A DNA stretch of 64,000 bases. It comes from Pseudoalteromonas sp. DL-6 (lineage in GTDB: Bacteria; Pseudomonadota; Gammaproteobacteria; Enterobacterales; Alteromonadaceae). A model generated the notes under the pieces. That model was not told the DNA's origin and did not search any database. It saw only the letters and a list, made by a program, of their open reading frames with translations. The stretch covers positions 248,001 to 312,000 of the forward strand of contig NZ_CP019771.1 in assembly GCF_004328665.1 (NCBI RefSeq). Reading direction: 5' to 3'. A program made the translations under genes and the position numbers. Below are positions 34,283 to 54,500 of the stretch, piece after piece; position 1 is the stretch's first letter; every line of letters starts with the position of its first letter.

Positions 34283-34416
34283 TAATACATCCTAAAAAAT
34301 AATTGCTGCATACATGCTAAACTTAGTGGGGTATTATATAGCATAACGCCTAGATGTCACCAAGGAGCACTTTAGCAAGGATAAAATTGAGCTTTAAAAA
34401 GTTTATAGAGAAATGT

Positions 34417-35499
34417 ATGTCCTTTTTTAAATTATACCGCCTACTAACGATTACCTGCCTACTATTAGTTAGTTATAATGCTCATGCTCTAGAGATCAGA
34501 TTTATTAATCCGGGTTTTTCCGACTCTGTTGATTCAAAAAATAACAACACCGGAAATTTTTGGTTTGATGTTTCTAAAATCATGCAAAGTGCAGCCACTG
34601 ATTTAGATGTGACATTAACAATAAAATACGCCAACCGAAATCATATTTTAATGAAAGAGCTGATCCAGCAGGCTATAAATGACAAACCCGATTACCTGAT
34701 CCTCGTAAACGAAAAAAATGTTACCAGTAAATACCTCTCTATAATAGACAGTAAACATGTCCCTATTTACTTTTTATTAAATCGCCCCTCGCCTGCGTCA
34801 GTTGATAAGTTACGCAAAAATGGCACTAATATAGTCGGTAGTATTACCCCAAATAATCGCGTTGCAGGCAAATTATTAATGCAAGAGCTTTATAATACGT
34901 TTTCTAAAAAAACAACAACACAAGCACATACCCTAGCGTTATTAGGCGATTATGCAACGCCTGCTTCTATTATGCGTACCCAAGGGTTAATGGACTTTTT
35001 AACGCAAACACCGCAAGTTACGTTAATCGCTAAAGAGGTTGCCAATTGGTCTGAGCAAGAAGGGTTTAGAAAAACCTTAGCGTATATGCAGCAAGCCCCA
35101 GAAATTAACATTATATGGTGTGCGAATGACGCCATTGCGTTTGGCGCAAAAAGGGCATTAAAGCAACTAAACAAGCAATCGCAAGTTATTGTGGGTGGTA
35201 TTAACTGGGAGGCTCCACCTAATAATGGTTCAGAGCTTGATGTATCTATTGGAGGCCATGTGTTGTTAGGCGCTTATGCCCTAGTTAATTTGTTCGACAA
35301 CCATACTCAACCAAAACATAGCCCTTTGCTTCATCGTACAGCTGATATTTTTGATCCGCTTAACGCTGCGAACATCCCGTTATACAACGCGATAAATAAA
35401 GCAGGACTAGCTGAAATAGACTTTATGCAATTTAGTAAAACACACGCTGACTGGCATGAATTTACTATAGAGAATTTACTGTTAGCGCTTGAGAAGTAG
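34417..35499 (+). CDS. Orphan periplasmic sugar-binding-type protein
   Basis: 360 residues from the ATG at 34417 (AGAG 6 bases upstream); a start at 34354 would add 21 residues of basic sequence before the signal peptide. Signal peptide ends at AHA. The mature protein looks like a type I periplasmic binding protein (LEIRFINPGFSDS, QQAINDKPDYLILVNEK, NNRVAGKLLMQEL, RTQGLMDFL, WCANDAIAFGAKRALK, VVGG-type strand). No ABC permease or ATPase gene is near, so it may serve a sensor or chemoreceptor rather than import. Ligand unknown. Confidence 0.75.
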   Translation: MSFFKLYRLLTITCLLLVSYNAHALEIRFINPGFSDSVDSKNNNTGNFWFDVSKIMQSAATDLDVTLTIKYANRNHILMKELIQQAINDKPDYLILVNEKNVTSKYLSIIDSKHVPIYFLLNRPSPASVDKLRKNGTNIVGSITPNNRVAGKLLMQELYNTFSKKTTTQAHTLALLGDYATPASIMRTQGLMDFLTQTPQVTLIAKEVANWSEQEGFRKTLAYMQQAPEINIIWCANDAIAFGAKRALKQLNKQSQVIVGGINWEAPPNNGSELDVSIGGHVLLGAYALVNLFDNHTQPKHSPLLHRTADIFDPLNAANIPLYNAINKAGLAEIDFMQFSKTHADWHEFTIENLLLALEK

Positions 35500-35575
35500 C
35501 ACTGTAAAGCCCCTTTACAGTACTATTCCCTTATTTAAAACTCTGAACGCATTTTGCCTACCATAATAAATGTCC

Positions 35576-37354
35576 CTATGCCTTATTGGATAACCAAAGC
35601 GTTTGATAGGGTGCTAACAGCATGGTTTGTTGGGATTCATCAAGTGTTGTTTTAGAAATTAGCTCAACCCATTGCTGGGTATTTATTAAGTTTAAGTCGG
35701 CTAAGGTTAAGCTTTGTGGCTGACTGCTAATATTATAAACACAAAAAATACTTTGTTGGCGGTCTATACTTTGTCGCCAAAAACCAAATAACCCCTCTCC
35801 TAAGTGCAAAGTAAATTGTGTGGCATTAGGATGGAATGCAGCTTGCCTTTTACGCACTGCTAATAATTGTTTTATTCCCTTGAACACCTGGTGATGATGG
35901 CTGTATTTTTCTTCAATTGCCGCTAATAATTTTGACTCTTGCCAGCGATGACGATTAATTGCACGATTGTGCTGCGAATTTTCAAAGCGCTCATAGTCAT
36001 TAGTGGTGCCAAGTAAACTGTGTATATATAGCCCTGGAATTCCTTCCATTGCAAACATAATGGCATGAGCACACAAAAAACGCTCAAGGCCATATTTATC
36101 TGCGCCGTTATGCGTCCCTTGTAAGGCATCAAACAAGGCAATATTTAGCTCATAGGGGGTATGTGTACCATCGTGACTGGTGCGCATTGAAACACGACCC
36201 CCAAATTGCATGGTCGTACTTACTAACGAAGCAACTTCACTCGGTTGTAATAACCCTTCAATTGGTCTCAAACCAATGCCATCATGAGAGGCAATAAAAT
36301 TAAAATATGCGGTACCGTTTTGCGCTGGCGGCATGCTCATCATCCAGTGCTTAAGCGCGGTACTATCGCCGCTAAGTAAGGTATGCAATAACAACGGCGG
36401 CAAGGCAAAGTTGTAAATTGCATGGGCTTCGTTGGCATTACCAAAGTACGATAGGTTTTCTTGATTAGGAATATTGGTCTCAGTAATAATCACCACACTG
36501 GGCTCGGCATGCTCAATCAGCGTTCGCAGTAAACGTACCACTTCATGGGTTTGCGGTAAGTTTATACAACTGGTATTGAGTTGTTTCCATAAAAATGCCA
36601 CGGAATCAAGGCGAAACAAGCGAATACCGTTATCTAAATAATGGCGAATAATGCCAACAAACTCTTTTAATACCTCAGGGTTTTCAAAATTAAAATCCAC
36701 CTGATCATGACTAAATGTACACCATACATGCTTATCACCGCTTGCTGTGGCTACCGTATGTAATAATGGCGAGGTTCGTGGGCGCACGACTTGGCTTAAA
36801 TCGTCAGTTAAACTAGCTGTTTTAAAATAGTCTTTCCCTGGGTGTGTATCGGTTAAAAAGTTTTCAAACCAAAGACTTCGGCTAGAACAATGATTAATCA
36901 CTAAATCAGCCATTAACTTTACATCGTTGGCAATGGCGTTAATGTCTTGCCAATCGCCCAGCGCTTCATTAACTTGCGCATAGTTCATTACCGCAAATCC
37001 TTCATCTGAGCTATACGGATAAAAAGGTAAAATGTGCAGCGCATTAAGCTGATGATCGCACTGCTCTTTTATAAAGCGGTGCAAGGTTTTTAACGGCGCC
37101 TCTAAGGCAGTTCCAACTGCTAACTCACTGTCTTCATGATTTATAATAGAATCGCCATAGGCAATTAAAACAATATCTTGTTCATCCCAGCGGTTCGTGT
37201 GCGGCGTAGGATCTCGAAGTGGGTTATTCCCCAATATCAAGGTGATTAATTCCTCAGCCAATTCGATTACTGCTATCGGTAACTCAACCCCTTGATAAAT
37301 AGTATGTAAATGTTGTTCGACTCGTTGAAAAAACTGTTCCCTAACTATGTCCAC
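35576..37354 (-). CDS. Glucosylglycerate phosphorylase (YcjM-like, GH13_18)
   Basis: 592 residues from a GTG at 37354 with GAGG five bases upstream; a TTG at 37408 would overlap the upstream gene and add 18 residues, while E. coli YcjM (559) begins near here. Counted from that TTG, catalytic Asp268 (LFRLDSV), acid/base Glu310 (IITETNIP) and Asp376 (IASHDGIGL) are present. Sucrose-phosphorylase relatives split a glucoside with phosphate; YcjM acts on glucosylglycerate. Here it should give glucose-1-phosphate and glycerate. Its genomic partners (glucosylglycerate synthesis) strongly support that substrate. Cytoplasmic. Confidence 0.85.
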
Positions 37355-37379
37355 AGGCGCCTCGTTTAAGTATACCAAT

Positions 37380-38600
37380 TTAACTGTATTGTTCGTTATC
37401 AAGCTCAACGGCTTCTTTTAATCGATCTAGTACATCGGGCATCGCCGAAGCTACACGGTTCCAACTCGGCACAAATGGCGCTTCCATTGGGTTTTCTAAA
37501 AAGTGTTGGCCAGCATTCATAATATTTTGTGCAAACATTTCTACCGCTTTTTCTTCTTGGTGAATATCAAGTGTTAAGCCGTTCATTAACGCATCATTAT
37601 GATAGGTTTCAATAAAGTCTAAACCAATGCGGTAATAAGTCGCTTTTAATGAACGTATGGTTTCGCTGGTAAAAGTAACCCCCTGAGTCGCTAACTTTCT
37701 AAATAGTGCTTTGGTTATATCAATCGACATTTTAGAAAGGCCAGCTGTTTGGTCGTCCAACGATAATTCTTGGTGTTTATGATCGTAGTTATCGGCAATA
37801 TCAACTTGGCACAAGCGGTTATGAGAATAATTACGATACATCTCGCTTAATACGCCAATTTCTAATCCCCAGTCACTAGGAATACGAATATCGTTTAATA
37901 CATCGCGTCTAAATGAAAATTCACCGGCTAATGGGTAACGAAACGAGTCCATATACTCAAGGTAATCACGGCTGCCTAAAATGGTTTTAAACGAGCGTAA
38001 TAACGGAGTAACCAGTAAACGCGATACTCGACCATTTATTTTTCCATTGGCAGTACGCGGGTAAAAGCCTTTACAAAACTCATAGTTAAATCGAGGATGT
38101 GCAACTGGATAAATTAATCGCGCTAATAAGCCTCGGTCATAAGTTAAAATATCGCAATCATGTAGTGCTATTGACTCAACCTCCGCGGTAGCGAGTTTAT
38201 AGCCCATGCAATACCACACATTACGGCCTTTACCGAGCTCGCGTGGCGCCACACCTAAAGCTTGAAGCTCTTTATCGAGCGCCTGCAAACGTGGGCCATC
38301 GTTCCACAACACTTTATGGTTTTGATCAAGCGATTTAAAAAAGTTCAATGCATAGCGATACTGGCTTTCGTCGGCTCTGTCTAAGCCTATGGTTATTTGC
38401 GATAAATACGGTACTTGTTGCAGCTCTTTAACTATGTTTTGTAAAGCAGGGCCTTCTAACTCACTAAATAATGAAGGCAATATAAGCCCCATTGGTCGCT
38501 GTTTACTAAAGCTAAGTAACTCTTTTTCTAAATCGTCTACGGGTCTATTGGCAATGTTATGTAGTGTTGTAATAATGCCATTTTGATAAAAATCAGCCAT
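37380..38600 (-). CDS. gpgS: Glucosyl-3-phosphoglycerate synthase
   Basis: 406 residues from the ATG at 38600 ([15 protein letters not shown]); a longer start at 38666 overlaps the kinase/phosphatase gene more deeply and is unlikely. GT-A fold: GKGRN at 123-127 (as GKG in GpgS), DCD at 148-150 for metal and nucleotide sugar, and [18 protein letters not shown] later. It would transfer glucose from a nucleotide donor to 3-phosphoglycerate. It overlaps the upstream gene by 8 bases with GGAG 10 bases before the start, so is co-translated. Mannosyl specificity cannot be fully excluded. Confidence 0.8.
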
Positions 38601-40332
38601 GCAAACTATACTCCTCAGAACTGGGTAAAATACTGTTAATACAAGGTAGTGCTGTAATTTCTTCAACCCAGCCTAGCGGTGCCGGCAATTGAGAATAGCG
38701 CGCTTTGTTATAGGTTAATTTAACTGGCTTTTTACTCTCTGGATTGGTAATGATGATGGCGATATCAGCCTCTTCTAGCATTTGCTTATCGTTATCGCTA
38801 TCCCCGAGCGCAATAATGCTCAGCGCTTTAGAAAACTGCGCATTAAACTGCTGCACTAACCATTGCTGAGCCATGCTTTTATCGGTATTCTTTCCAATGT
38901 GAATAAAGCGCCCGCCTACTTTAACCTCGTAGCCATATACTGATATCGCATTGATAAATTCATTAAGTTGCTGCTCATCGCCATGCCAGTAGAGCGGATC
39001 TGAGTATTGACGGGTTTGTGCTTGCGTTGCTTGTAGCTGGTTTAATCCTGTCATTTTCATTACCTGCTCACTCGTAAGCTCACTAAACAAACTATATTGG
39101 TCGCCGTAGTCTTTTTTTAAGCGTTTTAAATCAGTCCATAAATTGCTAATGGGTGCAGCAAACGAGTAACACCAGTAGCCTTGGTATTCGCTGCAGCCAA
39201 TTGGCCTGAGATTAAAATAATTTTTAGGAATATAAACAGCCGAGCCATTTTCAACAATGAAAGGCTGTGTAATATTAAGCGCTTGTTGCAGTGCCACTAC
39301 TTCACTAAATGTTTTGCTGGTATTAAATACCACAGGTACACCGCTGTATTGCAGCTCTTGTAATAAGGTATCTACCGCATCGGTGTTGTAATCTCTGTGA
39401 TTGAGTAATGTGCCATCTAAATCGGTAAAAATGATAGGTTGTACAATACTATCGCTTGTAAGCACCATCGCAGTTACATCTCGATTACTATCGAGCTCTA
39501 TAAGTGCATTTGCTTTAGCACTAAGGGTGTTGAGGTTTTCACGCGTGATGCGTTCAAAATGAGAAATAAACCACAATAACTGCTCATCGGTCATAGTGCC
39601 TGCGCCCTGCCCTTGTTTGGCAATTAACTTGTGTTCTTGCTCTTGGCGCCACGCAAACACATCATCAAAACTCGGGGCTTTGAGCATAATTGTGTAATCG
39701 ATTTTATCAAAAACGGTTTTATATTCATTGGCTAAACAGCTGTTAATACAGCGACGCCATAACCCTTGTTGATCGTATGATTTTTCTAGCTCGTTAATAG
39801 GCTCAACTAGCGTAAAAGGCTGCTGTGGTTCACTGGCTACACACCACCCTTCTAAAATAACAACATCGACCGGCTGACTATTGGTTAACCATTTGTTTTT
39901 TGCTACGGGTTCATCTTGTTGCTTATCAAAACGCGGCAGCGGTACATTTAGTTCTGCATTTAATAAACGGCTAATGGTGTTATCCATCAGCGCAACATCA
40001 TGTGTACCCGGTACACCTCTAGTGGCGAATAAACAATGCACATCTTGGGCTAACTGTTGGCGTTTTTGAATTGATAAATAAAAGTCATCAATAGAGAGCG
40101 CAACACAGTTTAGGTGGGTATTTTGGCTAAACCAAGTTACTAAATAATCACCAAGTGTGGTTTTTCCTGAGCCTTGGCAGCCATTAATCGCGACAAATAT
40201 AGGGGCTGTTTTTTTACTGGTTAGAATGTCCTGCGCAATAGCAGAAAAATACTGCTCGCTAATATACTGATATTTCAACGGCAGTTGGTGTTTTACTAAA
40301 AAAGCATTTATATCCACACTCTTGGTCTCCAT
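38593..40332 (-). CDS. Fused glycerate kinase and sugar-phosphoglycerate phosphatase
   Basis: 579 residues, two enzymes. N-terminal 1-290: D-glycerate 3-kinase of the GLYK/Tda10 P-loop type: GCQGSGKT (51-58), LSIDDFYLS (79-87), RGVPGTHDV (105-113) and LEGWCVA (160-166). C-terminal 298-575: HAD phosphatase of the mannosyl-3-phosphoglycerate phosphatase group: FTDLDGTLL with Asp304 and Asp306, VFNTSKTF, VENGSAVYIP and GDSDND. One protein therefore makes 3-phosphoglycerate from glycerate and dephosphorylates glucosyl-3-phosphoglycerate. It is first in the three-gene run. Two-enzyme fusion of this kind is not one I know as characterised. Confidence 0.85.
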   Translation of the reverse strand: METKSVDINAFLVKHQLPLKYQYISEQYFSAIAQDILTSKKTAPIFVAINGCQGSGKTTLGDYLVTWFSQNTHLNCVALSIDDFYLSIQKRQQLAQDVHCLFATRGVPGTHDVALMDNTISRLLNAELNVPLPRFDKQQDEPVAKNKWLTNSQPVDVVILEGWCVASEPQQPFTLVEPINELEKSYDQQGLWRRCINSCLANEYKTVFDKIDYTIMLKAPSFDDVFAWRQEQEHKLIAKQGQGAGTMTDEQLLWFISHFERITRENLNTLSAKANALIELDSNRDVTAMVLTSDSIVQPIIFTDLDGTLLNHRDYNTDAVDTLLQELQYSGVPVVFNTSKTFSEVVALQQALNITQPFIVENGSAVYIPKNYFNLRPIGCSEYQGYWCYSFAAPISNLWTDLKRLKKDYGDQYSLFSELTSEQVMKMTGLNQLQATQAQTRQYSDPLYWHGDEQQLNEFINAISVYGYEVKVGGRFIHIGKNTDKSMAQQWLVQQFNAQFSKALSIIALGDSDNDKQMLEEADIAIIITNPESKKPVKLTYNKARYSQLPAPLGWVEEITALPCINSILPSSEEYSLHG

Positions 40333-40422
40333 ATAACAATCCCTGAGTCAACTATAGGGTATGACTAAGGAAATGCAGTTACTAGACCAATATTATTTAT
40401 TGTTACTTTTTAGTAGGTTAAA

Positions 40423-40451
40423 AAAAAAGCGCATTTAAAATGCGCTTTTTT
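40423..40451 (-). terminator. Terminator after uraA
   Basis: Arms AAAAAAGCGCATTT (40423-40436) and AAATGCGCTTTTTT (40438-40451). On the minus strand it ends in a T-run and follows the uraA stop. Confidence 0.88.
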
Positions 40452-40480
40452 GGTGCAATATTTTTAACCACAGTGCAAAC

Positions 40481-41719
40481 TTAACTCTGGTTGCTCTGTG
40501 CTTTGGGTAATACTAAGTTTAATACTATGCCTAAAATAGCACATAAGCTCACACCTTCTAGGCTGAACTCACTACTACCTATGTACATACCACCAATACC
40601 ACAAATTAAAATAAGTGCCACAATACTTAAATTGCGCGGCTCACTTAAGTCATCGCCCGATTTAACTAAGGTGTTTAAACCAATAACCGCAATAGAGCCA
40701 AATAATAAAATCATTATGCCACCCATCACAGGCACCGGAATGGTTTGCAAACTAGCGCCCATTTTAGCAACAAATGCTAAGCAAATTGCAATAATAGCAG
40801 TCCACATCATTACTTTAGGGTTAAAGTTTTTAGTAAGCATTACCGCACCAGTTACCTCTGAGTAAGTGGTATTAGGTGGGCCGCCAAATAAGGATGCGGC
40901 AGACGTGGCTAAACCATCACCAAATAAAGTGCGATGTAATCCTGGTTTTTTCAAATAATCTTTTTTTGTAACTTGGCTAATTGCCATCATATCGCCAATG
41001 TGTTCAATAGCAGGCGCAATTGCCACCGGCACCATAAATAATATGGCTTGCCATTTAAACTCTGGTAACACAAAGTTTGGTACTGCTAGCCACTGTGCAT
41101 TACTTACGGCTTCAAACTGCACTATACCCATAAATAACGAAAGCGTATAACCGGCAACAACACCGGCTAAAATAGGTATTAATTTAAATACCCCTTTACC
41201 CCACACGGCAAACACTAAAGTAACGAGCAATGAGAACATAGAGATAATAATAGCGCTGTCGTAGGCAATAATTTGTGTGCCACCATCGCCACTTTTACCC
41301 ATGGCCATATTAACTGCTGCAGGCGCAAGCGCTAGACCAATTACCATAATCACTGGGCCTACCACAATTGGCGGCAAAATTTTATGTAAGGTTTTTGTAC
41401 CTTTAAACTTCACTAATAAACTTAATAGCATATAAGTAAAGCCCGCCGCCATTAACCCCCCCATAGTGGCGGGTATGCCCCACATTTGCACTGAGGCAAT
41501 AATGGGTGCAATAAACGCAAATGACGACGCTAAAAAAATAGGCACTTGGCCTTTAGTCACAAATTGAAACAACAAAGTACCTAAACCAGCGGTAAACAAG
41601 GCTACGCTAGGATCTAGGCCAGTTAATATTGGCACTAATACTAACGCACCAAATGCAACAAACAGCATTTGGGCACCGGTTAAAATGGTTTTTATAGAAA
41701 ATGTAGAATTATTTTGCAC
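40481..41719 (-). CDS. uraA: Uracil permease
   Basis: 412 residues, NCS2 nucleobase:cation symporter with about 14 hydrophobic segments. QMLFVAFGALVLVPILTGLDPSVALFTAGLGTLLF, the PAIEHIGDMMAISQVTKKDYL segment (Glu and Gly of the substrate site), and GGPPNTTYSEVTGAV match UraA. It imports uracil with protons across the inner membrane and lies 9 bases after upp, which converts the uracil to UMP. Confidence 0.92.
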   Translation of the reverse strand: MQNNSTFSIKTILTGAQMLFVAFGALVLVPILTGLDPSVALFTAGLGTLLFQFVTKGQVPIFLASSFAFIAPIIASVQMWGIPATMGGLMAAGFTYMLLSLLVKFKGTKTLHKILPPIVVGPVIMVIGLALAPAAVNMAMGKSGDGGTQIIAYDSAIIISMFSLLVTLVFAVWGKGVFKLIPILAGVVAGYTLSLFMGIVQFEAVSNAQWLAVPNFVLPEFKWQAILFMVPVAIAPAIEHIGDMMAISQVTKKDYLKKPGLHRTLFGDGLATSAASLFGGPPNTTYSEVTGAVMLTKNFNPKVMMWTAIIAICLAFVAKMGASLQTIPVPVMGGIMILLFGSIAVIGLNTLVKSGDDLSEPRNLSIVALILICGIGGMYIGSSEFSLEGVSLCAILGIVLNLVLPKAQSNQS

Positions 41720-41728
41720 TGCTAAACC

Positions 41729-42361
41729 TTAGTAAACCGTACCGAAAATTTTGTCACCTGCATCGCCAAGCCCTGGGATAATGTAACCTTTTTCATTTAA
41801 ATGGCTATCAACTGAGGCAGTAAAAATCTCAATATCAGGGTGAGCGGCTAATGTTTTTTCAACGCCCTCAGGTGCAGCAACCAGTACGATTACTTTAATG
41901 TCCTTACAGCCTGCTTTTTTAAGCATATCGATGGTGGCGATCATAGAACCACCAGTAGCCAGCATTGGGTCAATCACTAAGCTTAAACGCTCATCAATAT
42001 TACCCACTAGTTTTTCAAAGTAGGGAACTGGCTCAAGCGTTTCTTCATTACGCTCTAAACCCACTACACTCACTTTAGCCGCTGGAAGTAACGACATTAC
42101 GCCGTCCATCATACCAAGGCCCGCACGTAAAATTGGCACCACGGTAATTTTTTTACCCTTAATGTGCTCAACTTTAAGTTTATTGCCGTCCCAGCCTGTA
42201 ATTTCGTTATCTTCTAATTCTAGATTTTTAGTGGCTTCGTAAGTTAATAATGTGCCCACTTCTGAACACAACTCGCGAAAACTTTTCGTGCTAATTCCAT
42301 GCGCGCGCATTAAACCTAACTTATGTTGAACAAGGGGATGAGAAATAACGTGAATAGCCAT
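41729..42361 (-). CDS. upp: Uracil phosphoribosyltransferase
   Basis: 210 residues (E. coli 208). PRPP-binding [10 protein letters not shown] (about 131-140), [19 protein letters not shown] uracil-binding C-terminus. It makes UMP from uracil and PRPP in the cytoplasm and forms an operon with uraA. Confidence 0.96.
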
Positions 42362-42494
42362 AGTAATAAACCTAGTGATAAAAAATTTGACGTATTTTAT
42401 ATTAAAACAGGCCGTTTGACTGTTAATTTTAGTCTTGATTTCATAGTTCGTGCCAAAATATTTAATTTAGCCACAACTATAAAGATTTTTGTGT

Positions 42495-43448
42495 TTATGA
42501 ATTGTTACTCGCTAACCAATTATTTACCTGAGCGTGCATGTAGCTGTTAATCTTTTTGTGCTCTGGGCTCCACCCAAGTAAAAACCGATAAAAGTCTGCC
42601 CATGCCACTGGCCATAAATGAGCCCATTGTGTAACAACATCATCAGCATTAATGTGTGGTTGATAGTCACTCAGAGCTTGCTTCAATTGGCTAAAGTAAT
42701 AGTCGAGGTAGCTCTGTGCGTGTTTATGAAGCTCAGATTCATCCATACAACTGGTCATAAAATACATTACATCGACCACCCCAACGCCTGGACCCACATA
42801 CTGAAAGTCGTAACCGCGTATATGCCTTTGGCTATTAGCGGCAAAGTTATCAAGCTTGGCATCACCATGAATTAATGTTTTATAATTACACTGCTTTAAT
42901 GCGCCGTTTAACAGAGATGCAGCCTGTTTAATATCGGACTTTTCAGGTAAGTTATTAAATTCATCTGGCCGGGTATCCAAATGCCAATAACTTCCTTGCT
43001 GCCATAAGCCATCAAACTTTGCATTTAAATGAAAGGCATGAAAATGTGCCAACCACTTTAATATTGCTTTTATATTCTCGGTGGTTGCTTGGCTGTACCC
43101 CAGCTTTGAAAAATCTTTAAAAACCAAGGCAAACTCATCGCCCTTGTTGATTGCTTTAATGCATTCAATACTTGCTGCTTGCTTAGGCAATTTATGGCTA
43201 AATTGCTTATAAAACGTATATTCAACGTTGTAAGAGTCACGCTTTCTATTAAGTGCAAAGTTGCTTTGTTTAATTTTAGGGTGATTAATATGATCGGGTA
43301 CTTTAATCGCTTTAATCACACAGGCTTGCTCATCAAGTTGGCACTTCACAATTTGACCACAGCCACTCCAAAGCGAGGTTAGGGTTTCGCCAATAGCTAT
43401 ACGTTGAAAATGCGGGGTAAGTAATGGAAGATAAAAAGACATAGCCAT
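42495..43448 (-). CDS. CHK/aminoglycoside-kinase-like phosphotransferase
   Basis: 317 residues (an internal Met3 start would be 315). Kinase-like fold with catalytic loop LIHGDAKLDNF (HGD, as in the ecdysteroid/choline and aminoglycoside kinase families) and DFQYVGPGVGVVDVMYF for metal binding. It probably phosphorylates a small molecule. The substrate is not predictable from sequence. It stands at the start of the second accessory island and upstream of upp, with which it shares no obvious link. Confidence 0.75.
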   Translation of the reverse strand: MAMSFYLPLLTPHFQRIAIGETLTSLWSGCGQIVKCQLDEQACVIKAIKVPDHINHPKIKQSNFALNRKRDSYNVEYTFYKQFSHKLPKQAASIECIKAINKGDEFALVFKDFSKLGYSQATTENIKAILKWLAHFHAFHLNAKFDGLWQQGSYWHLDTRPDEFNNLPEKSDIKQAASLLNGALKQCNYKTLIHGDAKLDNFAANSQRHIRGYDFQYVGPGVGVVDVMYFMTSCMDESELHKHAQSYLDYYFSQLKQALSDYQPHINADDVVTQWAHLWPVAWADFYRFLLGWSPEHKKINSYMHAQVNNWLASNNS

Positions 43449-51503: not shown

Positions 51504-54500
51504 TTGAAGACTCCTCAGCGCGCTGCTTCTTTACCACCAGCATGTAAAACACTGGCGTAAATAATAGCCCAAATACAGTCACTCCAATCATACCTGAGAA
51601 TACAGCGTTACCCATGGCATGACGCATTTCAGCCCCTGCGCCGGTTGCCAACACTAACGGTATAACACCCGCAGTAAAGGCAATTGAGGTCATTAAAATA
51701 GGACGTAAACGCATGCGACACGCTGCCAACATAGCCTCAAGGTGCGATAATCCAGTGTCGTGTTTATCTTTGGCAAATTCCACCATTAAAATGGCGTTTT
51801 TAGAGGCCAGTGCCACCAGTACAATTAACGCTATTTGGGTAAATATATTGTTGTCTGAGCCTACAAACCACACCCCTAATAACGCAGAGAATATAGTCAT
51901 AGGTACAATTAAAATAATGGCCAATGGTAAACGTAGGCTTTCATACTGTGCAGCCAGTACCATAAATACAAGCAATACCACCAGTGGGAACACGTACACC
52001 ATAGTATTGCCGGCAAGTACTTGCTGATACGTTACCTCAGTCCACTCATATTCAATACCAGTAGGTAGCGTTTTCGCCAATACATTTTCAATCGCTGTTT
52101 GCGCTTGGTCTGAGCTGTAACCTGGCGCTGGGCTGCCGTTAAGTTCAGCACTTGGGTAACCGTTGTAGTGCATAACACGATCAGGGCCTATAGTTGGCGT
52201 TACCGTAAGCACTGAGCCTAGTGGCACCATATTACCTGCACGATTACGTACTTTTAGGTTTAGTATTTGCTCTGGGTCTACCCTAAATTCAGCATCTGCT
52301 TGAGCATTTACTTGGTAAGTACGACCAAACATATTAAAGTCGTTTACATACACTGAGCCTAAATAAATCTGCAATGAGTTAAATACTTCATCGAGCGCAA
52401 TACCTTGGATAAGTGCTTGCTCGCGGTCAATATCAATATCCATTTGCGGCACTTGAATTCTAAAGCTTGAATACAGCCCCATTAACGCCGGATCTTTTTG
52501 CGCCGCAGCAATCACTGATTGCAAGCTATTAAATAATGCTTCAAAGCCTTTGTTTGCTCTATCTTCAATTTGCAGTTTAAAGCCACCTGTAGTGCCTAAG
52601 CCTTGAATTGGCGGGGGCGGAAATACAGCCACAAACGCTTCATCAATAGCTGCAAAACGTTGGTTTAGTTGCGCTGCAATAGCCGAAGCCGACATACTCG
52701 GATCGGTACGCTCTGCAAAAGGCGCCAGTGGTGTAAACACAATGCCGCTGTTAGGGCTATTAGTAAACCCATTTACAGATAGGCCAGGAAACGCCACGGT
52801 GTTTGCAACCCCAGGTACCTCGAGCGCTATTTGCTGCATTTGTTTTACTACCGCTTCAGTTCTGTCTAAGCTTGCTGCATCTGGTAGCTGCGCAATGGCA
52901 ACTAAGTATTGCTTATCTTGCTGTGGTATAAAGCCACCAGGGACCGCGTCAAACAGCTTAATCGTGCCGCCAACTAAAGCAACATAGGCAACCATTACCA
53001 CCACGCTCATACGAATAAGTTTTTGTACTAGCTTTTCATACCCTGTTGCACCACGGTTAAACAGTCGGTTAAATGGCTTAAATAACCAGCGACCAAATAA
53101 TTTATCTAATAAGCGGGTAAACGCATCTGGTTTTGCGTCGTGCGATTTTAACAATAAGGCTGCTAGCGCCGGTGACAATGTTAGTGAGTTAAACGCTGAA
53201 ATAACTGTTGAAATAGTTATGGTTAAAGCAAATTGCTTATAAAACTGCCCAGAAAGTCCAGTAATAAAGGCCGTTGGAATAAATACCGCACACAATACCA
53301 ATGCAATGGCAATAATTGGGCCGGTTACCTCTGTCATTGCAACGCGTGTTGCTTCAAGCGGCGATAAGCCGTTTTCTATATTTCGCTCAACATTTTCGAC
53401 CACTACAATCGCATCATCAACCACAATACCTATAGCCAGTACTAAACCAAATAGCGATAAGGTATTAATAGAAACACCAAGCCACTGCATTACAGCAAAA
53501 GTACCAATGAGTGAAACTGGCACAGCTATAAGCGGAATAATAGATGCGCGCCACGTTTGTAAAAATACAATGACTACAATAACAACCAATGCGATTGCTT
53601 CAAGCAATGTCGCTATTACCGCATCAATGGAGCCACGAACGAATACCGTTGGATCATAAACAATGTCGTATTCAACACCTTCAGGAAAGTCTTTCGATAA
53701 ACGTGCCATGGTTTCACGCACCTGATCTGAAAGCTCAATGGCATTTGAACCCGGGCGTTGAAATATTGGCATTGCCAATGCGGGTTGATTATCAAGTTCA
53801 GCACGCAGTGAGTACGAGTCTTGGCCTAAGTCAACACGCGCCACATCTGACAAACGCGTAAGTTGCCCTTGCTCACCGACTTTAATAATGACCTGCTTAA
53901 ATTCTTCAATGCTATTTAGGCGGCCTTTCACGTTTAATAAAATTTGAAATTGGCTATCGTTAGAGATTGGTTGAGCACCTAAGCTACCCGCTGCAACTTG
54001 CTGATTTTGCGAGCGCAAAGCAGCCACAACATCGGTTGCTGTAAGCTCACGTGCTGCTAATGCATCTGGATTTAACCACACACGCATAGCATATTTACCA
54101 CCACCAAATAACTGAATATCACCCACGCCAGGTAAACGAGCTATTTCATCTTTAATGTTTAAATCGGCATAATTTGATAAATACGCCGTATCATGGCTAT
54201 TCTGGGGTGAATATAAATGCACCACCATGGTTAAATCGGGTGATGACTTTTCAGCAACTACCCCTAAACGCTGTACCTCTTGTGGTAACCTCGGTAATGC
54301 ACTATTTACTCGGTTTTGCACCTGTACTTGAGCACGGTCTAAGTCCGTACCTAAGGCAAATGTTACGGTTAAAGTCATGCGCCCGTCACTGGTCGCTTGT
54401 GAAAACATATATAGCATGTTTTCAGTACCGTTTATTTCTTGTTCAAGCGGTGTTGCCACTGTTTGTGCAATAACCGTTGGGTTTGCGCCCGGGTAACTGG

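Follow-up and report, generated by a model that had tools for sequence, protein, structure and literature searches.

Can one short operon both make glucosylglycerate and recycle it? The question is raised by three minus-strand genes in a 64,000-nucleotide stretch of Pseudoalteromonas sp. DL-6 (NZ_CP019771.1, positions 248,001 to 312,000), which we call the window. A first-pass annotation had placed them in one run with overlapping or near-abutting ends, and the coordinates of the open reading frames (ORFs), 40332 to 35576, bear this out. Glucosylglycerate has been described as a solute of cyanobacteria and mycobacteria under salt stress and nitrogen starvation (PMC11009771; this and the other PMC articles are drawn on in excerpt). 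We argue that the locus is quite likely a complete glucosylglycerate make-and-recycle operon, judging from what its genes are predicted to encode.

In the proposed cycle the synthase GpgS would transfer glucose from an NDP-glucose onto 3-phosphoglycerate, after which the HAD phosphatase half of a fusion protein would remove the phosphate to leave glucosylglycerate. Once the solute was no longer needed, a GH13_18 phosphorylase would split it with phosphate, releasing glucose-1-phosphate and D-glycerate, and the latter would be returned to 3-phosphoglycerate by the kinase half of the fusion. We infer these substrates and the direction of flux. With both arms running together, each turn would waste about three high-energy phosphates, and control of expression or activity is therefore needed.

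The enzymes of the cycle

Two marks have been described for glucosylglycerate phosphorylases: (T/S)ETN at the tip of beta-strand 5, and a Glu that replaces Gln in loop A (PMC7178133). The window enzyme has both. TETN is found in it and in 80/80 relatives, and its loop A reads PYELN, with the Glu again in 80/80 relatives. It is 36% identical to E. coli YcjM, which is annotated as a glucosylglycerate phosphorylase, over 590 aligned columns (382 bits, BLAST). The first-pass annotation had said that a preference for sucrose would speak against its assignment, and such a preference now looks disfavoured. The same replicon carries a second GH13_18 gene (C2:485200-487700) whose loop A is NVDLYQ, with the Gln, which fits the published sucrose phosphorylase motif. 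The window enzyme is 27% identical to this paralogue (163 bits, tblastn), lacks the N(L/V)D(I/L/V)YQ loop A, and scores 188.9 bits with the sucrose phosphorylase model TIGR03852 against a cut-off of 334.4. With the paralogue as a control, the motifs lead us to reject a sucrose phosphorylase reading of the third gene. Directly behind the catalytic nucleophile Asp, at residue 269 of the 610-aa ORF (36602-36604), the window enzyme has Ser where 80/80 relatives have Ala.

The second gene matches the GpgS model NF040724 from residue 25 to 426 of its 428-aa ORF, with 361.2 bits. Its DCD and PLAGE motifs, which are conserved in 80 relatives, align with DSD and PLGGE in a GpgS structure. A GRVS motif is also present, and the three motifs were aligned to the nucleotide and acceptor sites; DCD is of the DxD type, whose role in glycosyltransferases is general knowledge. 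Several scores weigh against a firm assignment. The NF040724 equivalog cut-off is 700, the GpgS model PRK13915 gives 71.6 bits against a cut-off of 262, and the phosphorylase likewise falls below the cut-off of its nearest NCBIfam equivalog. Similarity to solved GpgS structures is weak (2.5e-6 in a single-sequence search), and a profile of 24 GpgS sequences did worse, finding nothing among the solved structures. We file the gene as GpgS-like and not as an NF040724 equivalog.

The first gene is predicted to encode a D-glycerate 3-kinase (GLYK) fused to a glucosyl-3-phosphoglycerate phosphatase. The HAD half scores 212.7 bits with TIGR01486, above the subfamily cut-off of 164.75, and its listed matches to mannosyl-3-phosphoglycerate phosphatase (MPGP) equivalog models all fall below their cut-offs. 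Its motifs DLDGTLL and GDSDND are conserved across 80 phosphatase relatives. No family reached its cut-off in a Pfam scan of the kinase half. This half does match two structures named D-glycerate 3-kinase, 6ckg (2.9e-17) and 7xpc (9.2e-15), as well as 1odf (1.9e-17), which was deposited as a hypothetical protein, and its Walker A motif NGCQGSGKT is conserved across 69 kinase relatives. Two other families of glycerate kinase were sought in 108 Pseudoalteromonas genomes. Glycerate 2-kinase PF02595 is in 0/108. The MOFRL-type PF05161 is in 11/108, the window genome not among them; the operon is present in eight of these, and the remaining three belong to the five genomes without GLYK. Since PF02595 and PF05161 are both absent from the window genome, the fused GLYK is its only glycerate kinase of the three families and would be the only route among them that returns glycerate to glycolysis.

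One can imagine that the synthase uses another sugar or acceptor, as in mannosyl-3-phosphoglycerate, or that the phosphorylase splits another glucoside, so that the product is not glucosylglycerate. The phosphatase half belongs to the MPGP family TIGR01486, and GpgS is below its equivalog cut-off. Of the residues that hold the acceptor in the mycobacterial enzyme, Val186 and Thr187 (PMC2581804), the Thr is matched by a Ser in the window. Against this, the PLSGE loop has been linked to discrimination against mannose (PMC2581804), and PLAGE aligns to PLGGE in the place of that loop. The NF040724 match is full-length, and the phosphorylase, with both of the published glucosylglycerate signatures, joins GpgS in all 48 genomes of the genus that have GpgS. 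We consider a different product very improbable.

Co-occurrence, loss and fusion

In the 108 Pseudoalteromonas genomes the genes of the cycle travel together. A full-length fusion is found in 48 genomes, GpgS in 48, and a phosphorylase of at least 61% identity in 48, and these are the identical 48 genomes (Fisher p ~8e-32 for the co-occurrence of the three genes, a value that ignores kinship). Because the three genes occupy exactly the same 48/108 genomes, the gene set is not a product of chance. Neither GpgS nor a phosphorylase of at least 60% identity was found in the remaining 60. There, 55 have a kinase match only (broken in G082, spread over two contigs in G064), and no match at all is seen in 5.

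Some of these genomes look like cases of loss. G021 and G022 retain the neighbourhood of an EcKL gene, upp and uraA, followed by the cytochrome b562 and OsmC-type genes. They keep a free kinase with an unbroken frame, and the phosphatase, GpgS and the phosphorylase are missing. The same three are gone in G082, where the kinase is broken. On a uraA tree, G021 and G022 nest among genomes that carry the operon (support 98/93 and 99/98), and G082 nests within a different group of operon carriers, with lower support (88/91). The simplest reading is that phosphatase, synthase and phosphorylase were lost together at least twice. It must be noted that on the kinase tree G021 and G022 branch immediately outside the group with the fusion (support 94, not starred), which leaves some room for an ancestral free kinase.

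A scan of species genomes for GpgS relatives gave a wider set, from which we kept the best 80 of at least 585 as named loci; this set is biased to near kin. All 80 hold phosphatase, synthase and phosphorylase genes. A kinase leads the cluster in 69, followed in turn by phosphatase, synthase and phosphorylase. In 16/80 a single ORF encodes kinase and phosphatase (Pseudoalteromonas, Moritella, Glaciecola of the HTCC2999 type and a Methylophaga metagenome-assembled genome). The two are separate in 53/80, and in 49 of those 53 the phosphatase domain starts no more than 20 nt from the kinase stop. A quick kinase tree of 95 rows requires 6 changes of state between fused and not fused, of which at least 4 are forced by supported branches. 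Change counts cannot separate gain from loss, so the fusion was either gained or undone repeatedly.

Does the fusion mean anything? The kinase half could be a general glycerate kinase that sits in the operon by chance, which would leave the fusion functionally meaningless. The kinase match without the other genes in 55/108 genomes weighs in favour of this, as does the unbroken free kinase at the same locus in G021 and G022. The kinase is clearly able to exist without the cycle and is not strictly tied to it. Fusion is also mechanically easy where the two reading frames lie within 20 nt, as in the 49 split loci. What speaks for a functional tie is that the kinase comes first in 69/80 named loci, that the fusion recurs or is undone with the 6 state changes described above, and that the kinase of G082 is broken where the other genes are gone. 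We rate the chance explanation at slightly less than an even prospect.

In a class-wide sample a GpgS match is present in 50/369 genomes, and 41 loci could be scanned. The phosphorylase runs in the same direction as the synthase in 16, in the opposite direction in 15, and is not seen in the fetched stretch in 10. The 15 opposed cases among these distant gammaproteobacterial loci are L183, L190, L192, L199-L201, L203-L209, L212 and L214, and their orientation suggests separate control of making and breaking. We also looked for a common transporter partner among flank ORFs of at least 150 aa in the 80 named loci, and there is no general one among the 14 commonest families. The transporters recognised by eye in these families are MATE-like (near 21/80 loci) and uraA (near 12/80).

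The window proteins are not equally close to those of the 11 named Pseudoalteromonas loci. Identity is 90-95% for GpgS, 72-86% for the phosphorylase, 59-74% for the kinase half and 45-65% for the phosphatase half, so the synthase is nearly frozen and its partners drift.

Control of the operon

The upstream gene uraA is followed by a terminator-like hairpin and a T run, so the operon should have its own promoter, and it is probably a separate transcription unit. The hairpin and T run are also kept in the kinase-only G021 and G022. The stretch from the hairpin to the fusion contains a shared TGGTCTANNNNCTGCA with GG-N10-GC spacing in 13 of 14 operon-bearing Pseudoalteromonas rows, and in 13 of 14 also a TTGCACC half-site beside the hairpin. 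The exception is L059, whose upstream region is unalignable. L144 and L058 are probably the same genome, which makes it 12/13 distinct rows that share the block. Both elements are missing from the two kinase-only rows, where the hairpin is still there.

The sigma-54 consensus is TGGCACG-N4-TTGCW, with GG-N10-GC spacing, and we scored upstream regions for it under two rules. The strict rule required the GC and a position within 230 nt. The relaxed rule required GG and one G within 300 nt of the first gene, and was adopted after Vibrio and Shewanella upstreams had been read. Upstreams of other ORFs in the 80 named loci served as controls. Under the relaxed rule a score of at least 9/12 is reached in 61/67 named loci outside Pseudoalteromonas, which share ancestry and are not independent draws, against 46/485 controls. 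The counts are 39/67 against 14/485 at 10 or more and 12/67 against 1/485 at 11 or more. The opposite strand gives 2/67. Over 200 permutations of the consensus pattern the count averages 4 and never exceeds 20 of 67. The element is carried by a majority of loci in 27/30 genus groups. Near-perfect copies are found elsewhere (TGGCACGGTTTCTGCT, TGGCACGAATGTTGCT), and rpoN is present in the window genome.

NtrC binds a palindrome of the type TGCACC-N5-GGTGCA. Matches of at least 12/14 occur in 10/108 loci outside Pseudoalteromonas (6/67 named, 4/41 held out) against 6/595 controls. One locus each of Thalassotalea, Shewanella and Vibrio has a 13/14 match, the Vibrio one falling by eye inside a small ORF, and a 14/14 match occurs in one genome of the more distant set. 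The Pseudoalteromonas site scores 11 or 12 of 14 in 10/11 named loci. In 8/9 of the loci whose conserved block was scored, 74 nt separate its centre from the -12 element downstream, and the window has this spacing too. G097 has a diverged operon at another locus, and there TGCACTTTTTTGGTGCG and TGGCCTAAGTCCTGCA keep the same 74-nt spacing. The window genome has ntrB, and in front of it stands the NtrC-like TGCACCATTTTAGTGCG. The DNA ahead of the operon hints at control by nitrogen shortage.

We infer promoter use and the activator as follows. A sigma-54-type promoter in the gap that separates uraA from the fusion would drive transcription, probably under activation by NtrC when nitrogen is short, and the nitrogen-free anion glucosylglycerate would then replace glutamate as a counter-ion. 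We advance this regulatory part tentatively, at slightly less than an even chance. The other scenario is an ordinary glucosylglycerate operon that is mainly salt-responsive, its element bound by something else or served by another activator. A good deal weighs on that side. The 16-base element of the window has GG-N10-GC but scores only 7.5/12 (the same 16-mer is in L058), and elsewhere the -12 element is often TTGT or TTGA and not TTGC (position 14 is T in 26, C in 18 and A in 17 of 61). The strict rule finds 20/69 loci against 22/490 controls, and it was loosened only after some of the scored loci had been inspected. When the rule was fixed and applied to 41 more distant loci, 12/41 reached at least 9 against 15/110 (p 0.03; permuted patterns gave a mean of 2.9 and a maximum of 9). 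At 10 or more it was 3/41 against 4/110, with no significant excess at 10 or 11. As the signal fades in distant loci, the element belongs to the nearer clade and not to all GpgS clusters. The best site in 7 of 10 listed Pseudoalteromonas rows under the relaxed rule is another one, 253-289 nt from the gene start, so this rule would miss the conserved block. For NtrC, a site of at least 11 is found in 0/17 Alteromonas loci. Three other places in the window also reach 11/14, so the NtrC evidence is thin for the window alone.

The salt-responsive scenario has to explain, on its part, why 61/67 loci and 46/485 controls differ, why the opposite strand and the permuted patterns fall so far short, and why the element recurs in 27/30 genus groups. 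It also has to account for the near-perfect sigma-54-like copies and for the excess of NtrC-like palindromes over controls. We give it a substantial chance, if one that stays below even. The sigma-54/NtrC scenario can also be stated for a whole marine gammaproteobacterial clade, and here we would go no further than calling it possible and somewhat short of probable. The operon would belong to the sigma-54 regulon across the clade and to the NtrC regulon in Pseudoalteromonas, Shewanella and Thalassotalea. If this is true, the nitrogen-free solute would serve specifically as an answer to a lack of nitrogen, and the recurring fusion would couple the re-entry of glycerate to the completion of synthesis.

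Two further scans of 35300-42600 were not informative: one for sigma-70 promoters gave 15 sites against a shuffle mean of 20.4, and one for terminators gave 6 terminator-like sites against a shuffle mean of 7.8. The best NtrC-like palindrome of the window by our score (12/14) lies away from the operon at 54218-54234. In L160, a pair of NtrC-like sites at 1398 and 1501 (distance 103 nt) is flanked by an asparagine-synthase-like gene and an oxoprolinase-like one (both named by sequence appearance), and this intergenic region is possibly nitrogen-regulated.

Known systems and layout of the locus

Is such an operon new? Genes for GH13_18 glucosylglycerate phosphorylases are often accompanied by glycerate kinase, GpgS or GpgP genes (PMC7178133), and an operon for glucosylglycerate metabolism in Prochlorococcus includes recycling to glucose-1-phosphate and 3-phosphoglycerate (PMC11631117). 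The window is like the systems of E. coli YcjM, Meiothermus silvanus and Spirochaeta thermophila in its TETN, its loop-A Glu and its neighbouring glycerate kinase, GpgS and GpgP genes (PMC7178133, PMC11009771). It is unlike those clusters in that kinase and phosphatase are one protein. The 16 kb beside YcjM hold an ABC transporter and no annotated GpgS, which again differs from the window operon. The Prochlorococcus NATL2A operon shares the combination of synthesis with recycling to glucose-1-phosphate and 3-phosphoglycerate, but it has an adjacent transporter (PMC11631117), whereas no general transporter partner emerged from the 14 commonest flank families of the 80 named loci. Synthase, phosphorylase and phosphatase have consecutive gene numbers in Synechococcus PCC 7002 (A2021-A2023; PMC10873239). 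The glucosylglycerol phosphorylase of Marinobacter with its fused glucosylglycerol-phosphate phosphatase is likewise marine, gammaproteobacterial and GH13_18 with a fused phosphatase. It differs in that the solute is built on glycerol and not glycerate, and in the other partner of the fusion (PMC10873239).

The make-and-recycle core has therefore already been published in kind, and the window enzymes are an ordinary, well-supported member. The proposal of the first-pass annotation is thus supported in part. Its enzyme assignments and its reading of a locus that both makes and recycles the solute appear sound in the light of signatures, co-occurrence and gene order, but the idea of such an operon is not new (PMC7178133, PMC11631117). 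It had also suggested a fit with salt or nitrogen stress, and the nitrogen side gains indirect support from the sigma-54-like and NtrC-like upstream region, which it had not pointed out. In our searches of the open-licence literature we found no report of sigma-54/NtrC control of a glucosylglycerate operon or of a kinase-phosphatase fusion, and no paper that ties glucosylglycerate to Pseudoalteromonas; PMC3870243 names the solute only among its references. Two things are new to us: the recurrent kinase-phosphatase fusion, and the sigma-54-like element ahead of the operon, which in some lineages is accompanied by NtrC-like sites. The presence of the complete operon and an RpoN/NtrC-like control region in common marine heterotrophs would open the nitrogen link to a direct test. 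It also has a bearing on the suggestion that Alteromonas releases glucosylglycerate to Prochlorococcus (PMC11631117).

Table 1. Features of the predicted glucosylglycerate operon, in window coordinates
Feature	Position	Strand	Description or basis
Fusion gene, 579 aa	38593..40332	-	GLYK-type P-loop kinase ~1-290, short linker, MPGP-family HAD phosphatase ~298-579
gpgS, 406 aa, predicted glucosyl-3-phosphoglycerate synthase (GT81-type)	37380..38600	-	NF040724 full-length match, motifs
Predicted 2-O-alpha-glucosylglycerate phosphorylase (GH13_18, YcjM-like)	35576..37354	-	probable GTG start
TETN signature, residues 309-312 of 610-aa ORF	36473..36484	-	in 80/80 relatives; published motif
Sigma-54-like -24/-12 element TGGTCTAGTAACTGCA, GG-N10-GC, degenerate relative to consensus	40374..40389	-	genus conservation; stronger counterparts in other genera
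NtrC-like site TGCACCAAAAAAGCGCA, 11/14, centre 74 nt upstream of -12 element	40441..40457	-	
Hairpin AGCGCATTT-t-AAATGCGCT, then T run; predicted uraA terminator	40428..40446	-	

The genes of the operon are tightly packed (Table 1). The stop codon of the fusion (38595-38593) lies within an 8-nt overlap with gpgS, whose ATG at 38600 is preceded by GAGGAG. The phosphorylase ORF is listed as 37408-35576 with a TTG start at 37408. A GTG at 37354 sits 25 nt past the gpgS stop, with GAGG 5 nt upstream. For most relatives the alignment begins at about residue 14-30 of the longer ORF, and for the closest it begins earlier. The GTG is most likely the true start, the listed TTG being probably too far upstream. 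The operon is flanked by uraA (40481-41719) on one side and by a convergent plus-strand periplasmic-binding-protein gene (34354-35499) on the other. The latter is an orphan that is kept beside the operon in G126 and G108, and it is also kept in G082 without the rest of the operon.

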